The translations under genes and the position numbers were made by a program. The notes beneath the pieces were generated by a model. That model searched no databases, was not told the DNA's origin, and saw only the letters and a list, made by a program, of their open reading frames with translations. Positions 32,250-36,605 of a stretch of 64,000 bases of DNA are shown here, piece by piece. The stretch is from Desulfobacterales bacterium (lineage in GTDB: Bacteria; Desulfobacterota; Desulfobacteria; Desulfobacterales; JAHEIW01): positions 38,028-102,027 of the forward strand of contig JASJAN010000016.1 in the NCBI GenBank assembly GCA_030066985.1. Direction: 5' to 3'. The first letter of the stretch is position 1. The number at the start of each line of letters is the position of its first letter.

Positions 32250-32894
32250 ATGACATTAACCAACATCGACTATTCCCTGTACCTGGTCACCGACCGGGGT
32301 TTGGCCCGCGGTCGCGCGACCCTTGACATTGTCACCGCAGCCGTCAACGGTGGTGCCACCGTCGTGCAATTGCGTGAAAAAGAGTGCTCCACTCTGGAGT
32401 TCATTGAACAGGCCCTGAGCATTAAAGCGTTTCTTCAGACCCGCAACATTCCCTTGATTATCAATGACCGCGTCGATGTGGCCCAGGCCGTCAAAGCCGA
32501 TGGGGTGCATTTGGGGCAAACCGATATGCCGCTTGAGATGGCCAAAGGCATCTTGGGTGATTCAATGACGATCGGCATATCGGCCGAATGTCTTGAAGAT
32601 GCCATCAAGGCTGAAAAAGGTGGCGCCGATTATTTGGGGATCAGCCCCATTTACGCCACCCCCACAAAAACCGATACGGCTCCGGCGCTGGGATTAGCCG
32701 GGCTGCGGGAAATTCGTCAGGCCGTAAGCCTGCCACTGGTGGGTATCGGTGGTTTAAACAAAGAAAATGCGACTGACGTCATTCGCAATGGCGCTGATGG
32801 TGTAGCAGTGGTTTCAGCAATTGTGGCTGCCGATGACCCTGAAGGCGCAGCCCGCGGATTAAGGCAAGTAATAAACGAGGCCCAAAAGATATGA
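32250..32894 (+). CDS. thiE: Thiamine-phosphate synthase
   Basis: 214 residues, a TIM barrel that joins HMP pyrophosphate with thiazole phosphate to give thiamine phosphate. Motifs: YLVTDRGLARGRATLD at the start, VVQLREKECSTLEF, INDRVDVAQAVKADGVHLGQTD, ISAECLED and GISPIYATPTK. It ends inside the start of thiL with a 4-base overlap (ATGA), showing translational coupling. Confidence 0.96.
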   Translation: MTLTNIDYSLYLVTDRGLARGRATLDIVTAAVNGGATVVQLREKECSTLEFIEQALSIKAFLQTRNIPLIINDRVDVAQAVKADGVHLGQTDMPLEMAKGILGDSMTIGISAECLEDAIKAEKGGADYLGISPIYATPTKTDTAPALGLAGLREIRQAVSLPLVGIGGLNKENATDVIRNGADGVAVVSAIVAADDPEGAARGLRQVINEAQKI

Positions 32895-33910
32895 GCCTGA
32901 AAGACATCGGTGAATTTGGTTTTATTAAAAAAATCAGCCGCGGCTGCCTGATTCGGCCGGACAATATTGTCAAGGCCATCGGCGATGATGCCGCTGCTTT
33001 CAGAAGCGACCCCGAACAGCTGGCGCTGATCACAACCGATTTACTGGTGGAGCGTATTCACTTTTTACGCGATGCCATCGCGGGATTTGATCTGGGTTTC
33101 AAGTCACTAGCCGTCAACCTGAGCGATATCGCCGCCATGGGCGGCACCGCCCGGGAGGCTTTCATCAGTATTGCCATTCCCGATGATTGCCGGTTGGATT
33201 ACCTGGATGAAATTTATAACGGAATCAAAAAACTGGCCGCCGAATTCGATGTCAATCTGCTGGGGGGCGATACCACCCGCTCAAAGATCGATCTGATTAT
33301 CAATATTGTGGTGCAGGGCATGGTTCCGCAGGCGGAGCTTTTATGCCGTAATGCCGCCCGGCCTTCGGATATTATTTGTTCGACTGGTTTTTTAGGCGAC
33401 AGCAAGGCCGGTCTGCATCTCGTACTCAATAAAATTACCGCCGACACGCATGGGCTCAAATCATTGCTTAAGGCCCACAATCTGCCGCAGCCGCATCTGC
33501 GGGAAGGCCGTTTTCTTGCCCAGCAGTCCGGGGTTCACGCCGCCATCGACACCAGCGACGGCTTGAGCTCTGATCTGGGCCATATCGCTGAAGACAGCCA
33601 GGTCGGCGCCCTTCTGTATGCCGATAAAATTCCGCTTTCAGTGAACCTGAAAGATTTTTGCGCACGCTTTGGCTTTGACCCGGTCGAATACGCCCTTTCC
33701 GGCGGCGAAGATTATACCCTGTTGTGCACAATTGCGCCGGACCACGCACAGGAAATTGCGCGTGGATTTGAGAATAAATTTAAGCGCCCGCTGTTTGCCA
33801 TTGGCAAAATCACAGCGGACAAAGATATGGTGCTGATCAATCCGGATGGCACCACCCAACCCATCATCCCCTCAGGCTGGGATCATTTTAGGATTAAAGA
33901 AAATGAATGA
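32891..33910 (+). CDS. thiL: Thiamine-monophosphate kinase
   Basis: 339 residues. Phosphorylates thiamine phosphate to the active cofactor TPP. Family motifs: AIGDDAAAFR (Mg/ATP site), TTDLLVERIHF, LAVNLSDIAAMGG, LLGGDTTRS, IDTSDGLSSDLGHI and ALSGGEDYTLL. It overlaps thiE by 4 bases and thiD by 8 bases, so all three are coupled. Confidence 0.96.
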   Translation: MSLKDIGEFGFIKKISRGCLIRPDNIVKAIGDDAAAFRSDPEQLALITTDLLVERIHFLRDAIAGFDLGFKSLAVNLSDIAAMGGTAREAFISIAIPDDCRLDYLDEIYNGIKKLAAEFDVNLLGGDTTRSKIDLIINIVVQGMVPQAELLCRNAARPSDIICSTGFLGDSKAGLHLVLNKITADTHGLKSLLKAHNLPQPHLREGRFLAQQSGVHAAIDTSDGLSSDLGHIAEDSQVGALLYADKIPLSVNLKDFCARFGFDPVEYALSGGEDYTLLCTIAPDHAQEIARGFENKFKRPLFAIGKITADKDMVLINPDGTTQPIIPSGWDHFRIKENE

Positions 33911-34742
33911 AGCTGCCCAAAATCAGAAAAGCCCTAAACAATATCATAAAGTGCTGACGATCGCCGGCTCCGATAGCGGCGGCGGCGCCGGCATTCAGGC
34001 CGATCTGAAAACCATTTCCGCCATTGGCTGCTATGGCATGTCGGTCATTACCGCCCTGACGGCCCAGAATACACGCGGTGTTTTTGGCATTCACGCTGTT
34101 CCACCCGCTTTTGCCGTGGAACAAATTGATGCGGTCATAAGCGATATCGGCGCCGATGCCATTAAAATTGGAATGCTGTACTCAGCCGAGCTGATCGAGG
34201 CCGTGGCCGCAGCGCTCAAAAAACACAACGCCGCCCGAATCGTGCTGGATCCGGTCATGGTGGCCCAGAGCGGGGATAAACTGCTGCAGGATGATGCCGT
34301 TGAAGCCATCAAGACCCATTTGATGCCATTGGCTCAGGTGGTCACCCCGAATATACCGGAGGCTGAGGTCCTCAACGGCCAGCACATCCAAACTCAGAAA
34401 GATGTTGAAAGTGCTGCCAAATTGCTGGCCGCGCACCGCAGCCGCAGCATTTTAATTAAGGGCGGGCACGGGGATGATCAGCATAGTAGCGACCTTTTGT
34501 ACCTGACCGACGGGGACCGCCTGATGTGGTTGCCGGCGGAGCGTATTGCGACCCAAAACAACCATGGCACCGGCTGCACGCTTTCATCTGCGATCGCCAG
34601 TTATCTTGCCCGGGGTCACGACACCCAGGCGGCGGTTCAAAAAGCCAAAAGCTTTATGAACAGCGCCATTGCGGCCGGCGCCGCTTTTAAAATCGGCCAC
34701 GGCCACGGACCGGTGCACCATTTCTTTAATTGGTGGGATTAG
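33903..34742 (+). CDS. thiD: Hydroxymethylpyrimidine (phospho)kinase
   Basis: 279 residues; phosphorylates HMP and HMP phosphate for thiamine synthesis. Ribokinase-fold motifs: TIAGSDSGGGAGIQADLK, GMSVITALTAQNT, VLDPVMVAQSG, VTPNIPEAEVL, ILIKGGHG and the catalytic GTGCTLSSAIA. The ATG at 33903 overlaps the thiL stop (ATGAATGA). Last clear member of the TPP-riboswitch operon; the next gene on the strand starts 132 bp later without a visible terminator between them. Confidence 0.96.
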   Translation: MNEAAQNQKSPKQYHKVLTIAGSDSGGGAGIQADLKTISAIGCYGMSVITALTAQNTRGVFGIHAVPPAFAVEQIDAVISDIGADAIKIGMLYSAELIEAVAAALKKHNAARIVLDPVMVAQSGDKLLQDDAVEAIKTHLMPLAQVVTPNIPEAEVLNGQHIQTQKDVESAAKLLAAHRSRSILIKGGHGDDQHSSDLLYLTDGDRLMWLPAERIATQNNHGTGCTLSSAIASYLARGHDTQAAVQKAKSFMNSAIAAGAAFKIGHGHGPVHHFFNWWD

Positions 34743-34874
34743 ATATGCAACTGCGGCAGGGATGAGATGAAACACATATGAACACCGGCCAGTGGTCAAT
34801 TTCCGGTCAGCGCCGGCACGATACGCAATGCGGCCGATATTAACGAAAATGCGATTCTTTGAAAGGTCAACCCC

Positions 34875-35573
34875 ATGGCACCACCACAGGAGGGCACAAT
34901 TCTCGATCGCGATATTCGCCACTTCATTTATCGGTCTTTTGCCACAACCGGCCGGCCGCCGACCACAGCCGAAGCAGCGGATCATTTTAAAACTTCAATT
35001 GCCGCAGTTGAGTATGCCTATGAAAATCTAGCCAACGCACACCACATTGCGCTTGCCCCGGGATCTTATTCAATCTGGATGGCACACCCTTTTTCAGCCC
35101 TGCCAACAAATTATGTGGCTGAGGTAGAAGGCAAACGGTTTTGGGGCAATTGAGTTTGGGATATCTTCGGCATTGCGGCCATATTGGGCAAAAATGCCAG
35201 AGGACATGCTCCGTGTGGGTGTGGAGAGTGTGACGAAAAATTGAATTTAGAGATTCGCCACGGGCTGCCGGTGGCATCAGATTGGCTGGTTCATTTTGTT
35301 GTACCAGCCGTCAAGTTTTGGGAAAACATCGGCTTTACCTGAGCAACGATACTGGCTTTCAGTTTGGAAGACCATCTTAAACTTTGGTTATCCAGGCGAA
35401 AATTAAAGGCCGGATATTCGATGATGATTCAAAAATGTTGGGAGCTTGCGCAAAGCTGGTATACCGGCCGCCTGGATGTTGACTGGCAGCGCCTAAACCC
35501 GCAAGAAATGCAGCAGCTATTTGACCGCTTAGGGCTCAAAGGATCGTTTTGGGATCTGGGTCATACGCACTGA
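34875..35573 (+). CDS. MerB-like (organomercurial lyase family) selenoprotein, two in-frame TGA codons read as Sec
   Basis: 232 codons in one frame, interrupted only by TGA at 35151-35153 (codon 93) and 35340-35342 (codon 156). The pieces align as one alkylmercury-lyase-family protein: a winged-helix N-terminus (DRDIRHFIYRSFATTGRPPT), the conserved MAHPFSALPT, the core FWGN-U-VWDIFGIAAILG and a C-terminal WENIGFT-U-ATILAFSLEDH. In MerB the C-Hg bond is cleaved by Cys96, Asp99 and Cys159. Here TGA93, Asp96 and TGA156 hold those places with the same 63-residue spacing. Selenocysteine at both is the best reading; a pseudogene with two nonsense mutations at exactly these sites is unlikely. AAAGG lies 8 bases before the ATG. 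An extra CGCGEC motif at about 113-118 may bind metal. It follows the thi operon; its true substrate is unknown. Confidence 0.8.
35169..35198 (+). promoter_or_regulatory. Candidate SECIS-like hairpin after the first TGA
   Basis: GGCATT (35169-35174) pairs with AATGCC (35193-35198), with an inner GCC/GGC pairing and a small loop centred near 35183. An alternative smaller hairpin is GGC-ATTGCG-GCC at 35169-35180. The loop lies about 18-30 bases after TGA 35151-35153, inside the range for bacterial SECIS elements. The fold is less convincing than the one after the second TGA. Confidence 0.4.
35353..35374 (+). promoter_or_regulatory. SECIS-like hairpin after the second TGA
   Basis: TGGCTTTC (35353-35360) pairs with GGAAG-A-CCA (35366-35374), with one U-G pair and one bulged A, closing a 5-base loop AGTTT (35361-35365). 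The loop starts 18 bases after TGA 35340-35342 and has G at its second position, both as expected for a bacterial SECIS element recognised by SelB. Confidence 0.6.
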
Positions 35574-35600
35574 GTCGGATGCGCATACCTGACTTTTTAA
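35574..35600 (+). terminator. Weak terminator-like hairpin after the MerB-like gene
   Basis: GTCGG (35574-35578) pairs with CCTGAC (35589-35594) via G-U, followed by TTTTT. The stem is only about 5 bp, so this is tentative. It supports the third TGA (35571-35573) being a real stop. Confidence 0.3.
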
Positions 35601-35611
35601 ACCACGCCATT

Positions 35612-36457
35612 TTAGACCATAAAACGAATATATATTCCCGATAAAACCGCCCAGCCCAGAATGAGAAGCGTTAAAACCGCCAGCCCGCCGGCCAGTAGTT
35701 TGTGTACGATATTCTCCCTTTTGCGTTCCTGATACCCCAGCAAAAACCCGAGACCGATACCGGCCGCAAGCCCACCGGCGTGTCCCCAGTTGTTGATGAT
35801 CGGTACCAGAAAACCGAACACAAACAGCAGCAGCATCCAGATGCCGATTTGTTTATAGAGCGCCCGTCCGTATACACCTCCCCGGCTTTTGCCGTAATAC
35901 AGCAAGGCGCCGGCCAGGCTGCAGACCGAGGCGGAGGCACCGATCGTCCATGGCACGGCCGCTATAACCGATACCCCAAAGCCCATCACGCCGCCCAGGG
36001 TGTAAATGATAAACATGCGATACACACCGAATTCCCGCGCCACCAGCAACCCCAGCTGGCGGAAAGCCACCATGTTGAAGAAAATATGCAAAATTCCGCC
36101 ATGCAGATAATTGGCGGAAATCAGGGTCCAGTATCGCTGGTCGGCATCGATGGGTTCGCTTCCGGTTGCCCCCAGTAATTCAAGGATTTGCCCTGAGGGT
36201 GATAAGAATGTCAGCGGATTCATACCCAGGCCAAATCCTCTGGGATTCAACAACAAACAAATTGCGTAAATGCCGATATTGATCCCGATCATCACTTTGA
36301 CCAGCCGATAGGGGTCGTTAAAACCGCGGGTCCAGATGTTGTTTTTCCACCAGGCCGCCGGGTGCGCTGTACCGCAATATGGACAGTGCTTTTCAGACGT
36401 GCTGATCAGTTTTTTACAGTTGGGGCAAAGCAGAGATTGTCTTTTTTGAGCAGGCAT
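35612..36457 (-). CDS. Rhomboid intramembrane serine protease with N-terminal zinc ribbon
   Basis: 281 residues from the ATG at 36457. An N-terminal zinc ribbon (LCPNCKKL, HCPYCG) precedes about six to seven membrane helices. The rhomboid catalytic Ser lies in TIGASASVCSLAGALL, with the GxSx motif as GASA, and the catalytic His in NWGHAGGLAAG. The HGGILHIFFNMVAF motif is the conserved H...N element of helix 2. Rhomboids cleave membrane proteins within the bilayer. A longer TTG-initiated frame up to 36526 exists but looks less protein-like. Convergent with the MerB-like gene. Confidence 0.9.
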   Translation of the reverse strand: MPAQKRQSLLCPNCKKLISTSEKHCPYCGTAHPAAWWKNNIWTRGFNDPYRLVKVMIGINIGIYAICLLLNPRGFGLGMNPLTFLSPSGQILELLGATGSEPIDADQRYWTLISANYLHGGILHIFFNMVAFRQLGLLVAREFGVYRMFIIYTLGGVMGFGVSVIAAVPWTIGASASVCSLAGALLYYGKSRGGVYGRALYKQIGIWMLLLFVFGFLVPIINNWGHAGGLAAGIGLGFLLGYQERKRENIVHKLLAGGLAVLTLLILGWAVLSGIYIRFMV

Positions 36458-36570
36458 AAGTTGAAAGGGGTATAAATGTTTTGAGATTTTATAATGTGGG
36501 TTTCCATTCAGAAGTGAGTCCGCCAAAGGCGCACTGAGCCGGAAAGAAAACCAGAGTTGATTGCTTTTTA

Positions 36571-36605
36571 ACCGGCAAACGGGAAAACGGGTAACGGGCT
36601 CAACC
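36571..36605. repeat. Dispersed repeat ACCGGCAAACGGG
   Basis: ACCGGCAAACGGG followed by AACGGGCTCAACC. The same start and end occur at 44026-44053, and related pieces in reverse at 29840-29860 and 43967-43988. It lies between the rhomboid gene and the small protein gene. Confidence 0.55.

Follow-up and report, generated by a model that had tools for sequence, protein, structure and literature searches.

A MerB-family gene with in-frame TGA codons at both catalytic cysteine positions predicts a double-selenocysteine protein in a Desulfobacterales bacterium

The 64,000-nucleotide stretch of DNA analysed here (called here the window), which belongs to a Desulfobacterales bacterium (assembly GCA_030066985.1, contig JASJAN010000016.1, positions 38,028 to 102,027), carries on its forward strand a MerB-family gene of 232 codons plus a final TGA stop (34875..35573, +; stop at 35571-35573), recognised by frame reading and by the Pfam MerB model PF03243. 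Two further TGA codons lie in its frame, codon 93 (35151..35153, +) at the MerB Cys96 column and codon 156 (35340..35342, +) at the Cys159 column, and it is very probable that both are read as selenocysteine (Sec). The product would probably be a MerB-family protein in which two selenols, together with an aspartate (Asp96, 35160..35162, +, at the MerB Asp99 column), hold and cleave a carbon-mercury bond or another carbon-metal bond. The single frame, both TGAs, Asp96 and the spacing of 63 codons described in the initial annotation are all present in the sequence, and the same spacing was found in five loci with TGA at both positions (TGA/TGA loci L113-L117). A limited literature search returned no description of a double-Sec MerB, and on sequence grounds we call the predicted protein a previously undescribed form of the known MerB-like selenoproteins.

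The claimed homology to MerB was borne out, as the window protein passes PF03243 (67.2 bits for a gathering cut-off of 27, residues 73-196) and, in its homologues, the two columns are occupied by TGA or Cys. The solved MerB 1s6l aligns without gaps over residues 75-125 with an offset of 3, so that TGA93 is matched to MerB residue 96 and Asp96 to residue 99. Both placements are found again in our alignment A1, where TGA156 lines up with the Cys in the FCSQVHF segment of L082, a true MerB that passes both NCBI MerB cut-offs (250 and 217 bits for NF009710 and NF033555), and where an invariant Cys (Cys116, 35220..35222, +) pairs with the Cys of SHC in L082. We take the catalytic residues of MerB to be Cys96, Asp99 (the proposed proton donor) and Cys159. 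The window protein shares with MerB the Asp99 column, both metal-binding columns and a predicted architecture in which an N-terminal winged-helix part (residues 6-69, 34890..35081, +) precedes the MerB domain; a MerB2 alignment spans residues 7-205, N-terminal part included, and a MerB fold is predicted. By contrast, UGA replaces both catalytic Cys codons and the protein stays far under both NCBI cut-offs, with 22.8 bits for NF009710 (cut-off 193) and NF033555 (cut-off 200) not listed among its matches.

Among 242 genomes of the order, 39 gave a total of 47 PF03243 matches. Two in-frame TGAs were found in 39 of these matches, one in three and none in five, and every internal stop was TGA, with no TAA or TAG inside any of the 47. 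At the level of the phylum, 61 matches occurred in 50 of 395 genomes, with two TGAs in 37, one in seven, a TAA in one (L097) and no stop in 16; the two lists overlap, both matches of the window genome and G105 being present in each. Three subgroups can be told apart by sequence and by TGA-to-TGA spacing, which is 63 codons in group A, the type of the window gene (62 in the divergent L016), mostly 65 in group B and 75 in group C. Groups A and C keep Asp at the Asp99 column, where Glu predominates in group B, with Asp in L040. A collection assembled by codon patterns comprised 47 distinct sequences (4 from group A, 32 from B and 11 from C); it excluded L044, L057 and L100, which have no start codon in range, its patterns missed L048, L056 and L059, and a third TGA lies within the trimmed stretch of L028 and L055. 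The window genome carries one group-A and one group-C copy, the latter (G000:C45:12722-13108, L012:9408-10151) downstream of a Cys-rich protein, so that the window gene does not stand alone as had been proposed: a second double-TGA MerB paralogue is present in the same genome. Two other relatives were observed in passing. L056, from G145, is a shortened group-A-like copy without the stretch of the first TGA and resembles a deletion derivative. L018 is a Cys/Cys relative of group B with Glu at the Asp99 column, and adjoins a 384-residue protein that by eye resembles uroporphyrinogen decarboxylases/methyltransferases.

To extend the comparison, named genomes were scanned with the group-A alignment; 355 relatives were confirmed and the best 80 of the 355 were kept. 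Once the window gene and the group-A loci were added, both positions could be read in 82 distinct sequences, yielding 64 Cys/TGA, 11 Cys/Cys and 7 TGA/TGA forms (a narrow reading pattern missed 8 of the 80 loci and left 14 unread at position 2; a wider one read all). Cys/TGA hosts belong to Acidobacteria, Gemmatimonadetes, Chloroflexi, Actinobacteria, Marinimicrobia and others, and Cys/Cys hosts to Actinobacteria, e.g. Amycolatopsis. The Cys of these relatives sits at the same two columns; the initial annotation had held that Cys lying elsewhere would favour a pseudogene. When both columns were masked for tree building, the window gene grouped with five other TGA/TGA sequences in one clade (support 99), codon 93 being TGA in all six members; the seventh, L016, stood apart, and the Cys/Cys set occupied one side of a branch. 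The Cys/TGA relatives (within L118-L192) share with the window protein about 33-43% identity and the TGA at the Cys159 column, whereas at the Cys96 column they carry Cys and the window gene TGA. These Cys/TGA relatives, spread over many phyla, look like single-Sec selenoproteins that have gone unrecognised. No database name among the matches listed says selenoprotein; most are unnamed and the rest are called hypothetical protein, Alkylmercury lyase or organomercurial lyase. P0002-P0004 show Trp at both positions, which looks like the work of a gene caller taking TGA for Trp, and in 7 of 13 inspected proteins (P0005-P0008, P0010, P0020 and P0050) position 1 is Cys and the sequence breaks off directly ahead of position 2, presumably on reaching the TGA. 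Database relatives of the Cys/TGA kind measure about 146-155 residues and end just before the second column.

The window genome encodes the machinery for Sec insertion: tRNA-Sec (selC, 75.2 bits), selB (376 bits), selA (614 bits) and selD (356 bits), the last itself with one TGA. The initial annotation had reasoned that a genome without selB or selC would point to a pseudogene, and all four genes are present. The genome also uses TGA for normal termination, as at the end of thiE, where it lies in an ATGA overlap with thiL (32891-32894). Across the wider family, selB was tested in the hosts of 50 of the 80 loci (all 5 TGA/TGA, all 11 Cys/Cys and 34 Cys/TGA) and was found over cut-off in 33 of 39 hosts of TGA forms compared to 3 of 11 Cys/Cys hosts (p 0.0006, uncorrected for relatedness).

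A search for a selenocysteine insertion sequence (SECIS) after each TGA had been proposed in the initial annotation; a SECIS-like hairpin was found after TGA156 and none that is convincing after TGA93. Following TGA156 (35356..35370, +), RNAalifold on six relatives gave 6 consensus pairs, 3 of which show changes in both partners; the window copy does not form the outermost pair (16-32) and keeps five. The published bacterial SECIS model has a G at loop place 1 or 2 with G or U coming next, a distance of 16-37 nt and an energy of -7.5 or lower. The 5-nt apical loop AGUUU (35361-35365) and its distance of 18 nt past the UGA fit this model, and the energy of the 42-nt stretch, -7.3, falls just short. 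We predict that this conserved RNA hairpin acts as a SECIS. At position 2, a hairpin of at least 5 pairs with a GGUC loop was found in 54 of 64 Cys/TGA, 32 of 32 group-B, 10 of 11 group-C and 2 of 7 group-A TGA/TGA genes, in none of the 11 Cys/Cys genes and in 0.45% of 19,964 random windows; 9 of the 11 Cys/Cys genes have a hairpin of at least 5 pairs at this position. Where position 2 is followed by Arg-Ser, this pair is encoded by CGG TCG in 55 of 57 Cys/TGA and in all 32 group-B genes. Measured against synonymous shuffles, the folding z of the 64 Cys/TGA genes was -0.99 ± 0.13 after the TGA and -0.02 ± 0.12 after the Cys, that of the Cys/Cys controls -0.52 ± 0.25 and -0.26 ± 0.19, and that of group C after the second TGA -0.33 ± 0.13. 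After position 1 the seven group-A TGA/TGA genes gave a mean of -0.82 ± 0.26. A loop containing GU follows position 1 in 28 of 32 group-B genes (GGUC in 6), 9 of 11 group-C genes (GGUC in 0) and 1 of 7 group-A TGA/TGA genes (GGUC in 0), compared to 4 of 64 for the Cys of Cys/TGA genes. Rfam returned no match at E <=1 over 33500-36600 except a sub-threshold glmS; the presence of a bacterial SECIS model in Rfam is unconfirmed.

Could the gene instead be a pseudogene decaying through two nonsense mutations? Besides the interruptions themselves, the TAA of the phylum relative L097 and the truncated aspect of L056 and L059 would fit such decay. The initial annotation had named homologues with other stop codons as a sign of a pseudogene; the 47 order matches are free of TAA and TAG, though 1 of the 61 phylum matches has a TAA. 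However, the same two codons are TGA throughout the six-sequence clade and again in groups B and C. Moreover, pN/pS between the window gene and L043 was 0.21 before, 0.23 between and 0.28 after the TGAs, and it stayed under 0.57 in every segment of every pair compared, which indicates purifying selection past both TGAs. Two chance nonsense mutations are improbable, as initially argued, the pattern being far beyond chance; decay is hardly credible and was rejected, the conserved TGA pattern already speaking against it. A changed genetic code, with TGA read as Trp, Cys or Gly, would account for the Trp at both places in P0002-P0004. It is nevertheless very improbable and was likewise rejected, given the TGA that stops thiE, the four sel genes and the GGUC hairpin found after TGA and not after Cys. 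It was also considered that the gene might be a SaoL, a member of the proposed selenocysteine-assisted organometal system. SaoL, which the initial annotation named correctly, belongs to the known selenoproteins of MerB-like type and has a single Sec, in a CU motif (PMC13188914); it is, like the predicted window protein, related to MerB and has Sec at the Cys159 column, which the SaoL-type L085 shows. Against the SaoL model NF040728, however, the window protein scored 24.7 bits for a cut-off of 140, compared to 175 for L085 of the same phylum; four sequences of groups B and C scored 36.5-48.2 bits and the group-A L045 gave no match. SaoL has one Sec, L085 combining a first-column Cys with a second-column TGA, whereas the window gene has UGA at both, and 0 of 8 tested flanking proteins match a Sao model. 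Membership, scarcely tenable on these scores, was rejected for the 24.7 of 140 bits, the two TGAs and a Thr rather than Cys codon directly before TGA156; the gene is a branch distinct from SaoL, as initially suggested. L085, L019 and L090 were seen to have Cys at column 96 and a CU motif at column 159; L085, the one scored against the SaoL model, passes its cut-off. MbdU (NF045648; PMC13188914) also combines two Sec in one protein and is described as metal-binding; it is a separate family with a CU motif, known here from one line of a review table.

For the double-Sec protein, organometal lyase chemistry is somewhat favoured, and organomercury as its main substrate is a tentative and slightly doubtful assignment. 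SelB would insert Sec at both UGA codons. At neutral pH Sec93 and Sec156 would be deprotonated, and they would attack the metal of R-M+ and hold it as a chelate; Asp96 would protonate the leaving carbon with release of R-H, and the metal would exit by exchange with cell thiols or selenols. The competing view is that of a MerB-fold selenoprotein which is not a lyase, namely a selenol-based binder, sensor or redox protein for metals or metalloids, perhaps with nucleic-acid binding through the winged helix. The N-terminal winged helix matches LexA-type DNA binders, no mer context was found, Glu takes the place of Asp99 in most of group B, and mercury held by two selenols would be released slowly, a matter of general chemistry. 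Set against this, Asp99 is retained in groups A and C, Cys and Sec alternate at exactly the two metal-binding columns, and true MerB has a similar N-terminal part; we regard a non-lyase as unlikely, yet as the most serious competitor. Several results weigh against a double-Sec lyase. The sequence-only match to 1s6l is weak (E 0.21), and Trp occupies the column of Tyr93, which with Cys159 is named essential in MerB (PMC11308531). The window loop after TGA156 is AGUUU rather than GGUC, and the looser test for GU in the loop at position 2 is passed by 7 of 7 group-A TGA/TGA genes but also by 4 of 11 Cys/Cys genes. The weakest point is TGA93, after which the window copy shows no clear SECIS (z +0.46 relative to synonymous shuffles) and the consensus stem has 3 pairs and no both-sided changes; the candidate 3-bp stem (35169..35180, +) is weak and unconvincing as a SECIS. 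Over cut-off, selB is missing in 6 of 39 hosts of TGA forms, three of which have partial sub-cut-off matches. Of the 242 order genomes, 6 have a MerA over its cut-off and none of these is among the 35 with a TGA-bearing MerB, a further difference from MerB, so that a classical mer pathway is not supported. The methylation gene hgcA was found in 22 of these 35 genomes compared to 74 of 207 others (odds ratio 3.0, raw p 0.0045; G075, with two sub-cut-off hgcA fragments, scored as without); the link weakened to p 0.028 with genome size and was gone within families (p 0.27), and hgcA is therefore not used as evidence. Finally, the genes are solitary: among 37 loci compared, no neighbour family is shared by three or more group-A loci, and among 80 loci none recurs in more than 4, many loci being cut by contig ends.

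If Sec is confirmed, the double-Sec MerB would be an enzyme with selenium at both metal-binding places, a form unlisted in a 2026 prokaryotic selenoprotein inventory, the 119-family table there having MerB solely as SaoL (PMC13188914). It also points to a wide family of MerB relatives whose sequences are ended at, or misread through, the UGA in databases. A recent ocean survey screened merB by Tyr93 and Cys159 (PMC11308531), and UGA-bearing relatives would fail that screen. A diselenol enzyme class in Desulfobacterota, consisting of MerB-like lyases with Sec at both metal-binding places that demethylate methylmercury or a different methylated metal with the help of selenium and independently of MerA, is a rather unlikely extension of these sequence data. 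Some hosts of TGA-bearing MerB carry hgcA, the window genome included; were the proposal true, one cell could both make and break a carbon-metal bond through hgcA and a diselenol lyase. To our knowledge, methylmercury breakdown by anaerobes without mer operons is an open question, which would become testable with Sec confirmed.

Regarding the surroundings of the gene, no mer gene was found among the eight tested flanking proteins, and both comparisons of gene neighbourhoods yielded no clue to function. The largest neighbour families shared among the 37 loci are of common kinds by eye (response-regulator-like in 7, ABC-ATPase-like in 5); these loci were read with the standard code, so that selenoprotein neighbours would go unseen. 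In L062, L063 and L070 of group B, a protein that looks radical-SAM-like by eye is encoded on the same strand 3-80 bases upstream. In-frame TGAs were also observed in two sub-cut-off matches to other mercury-related families, one in a MerA-like match (G045:C36:8806-10179) and two in a match to the HgcA family (G196:C89:1854-2240).
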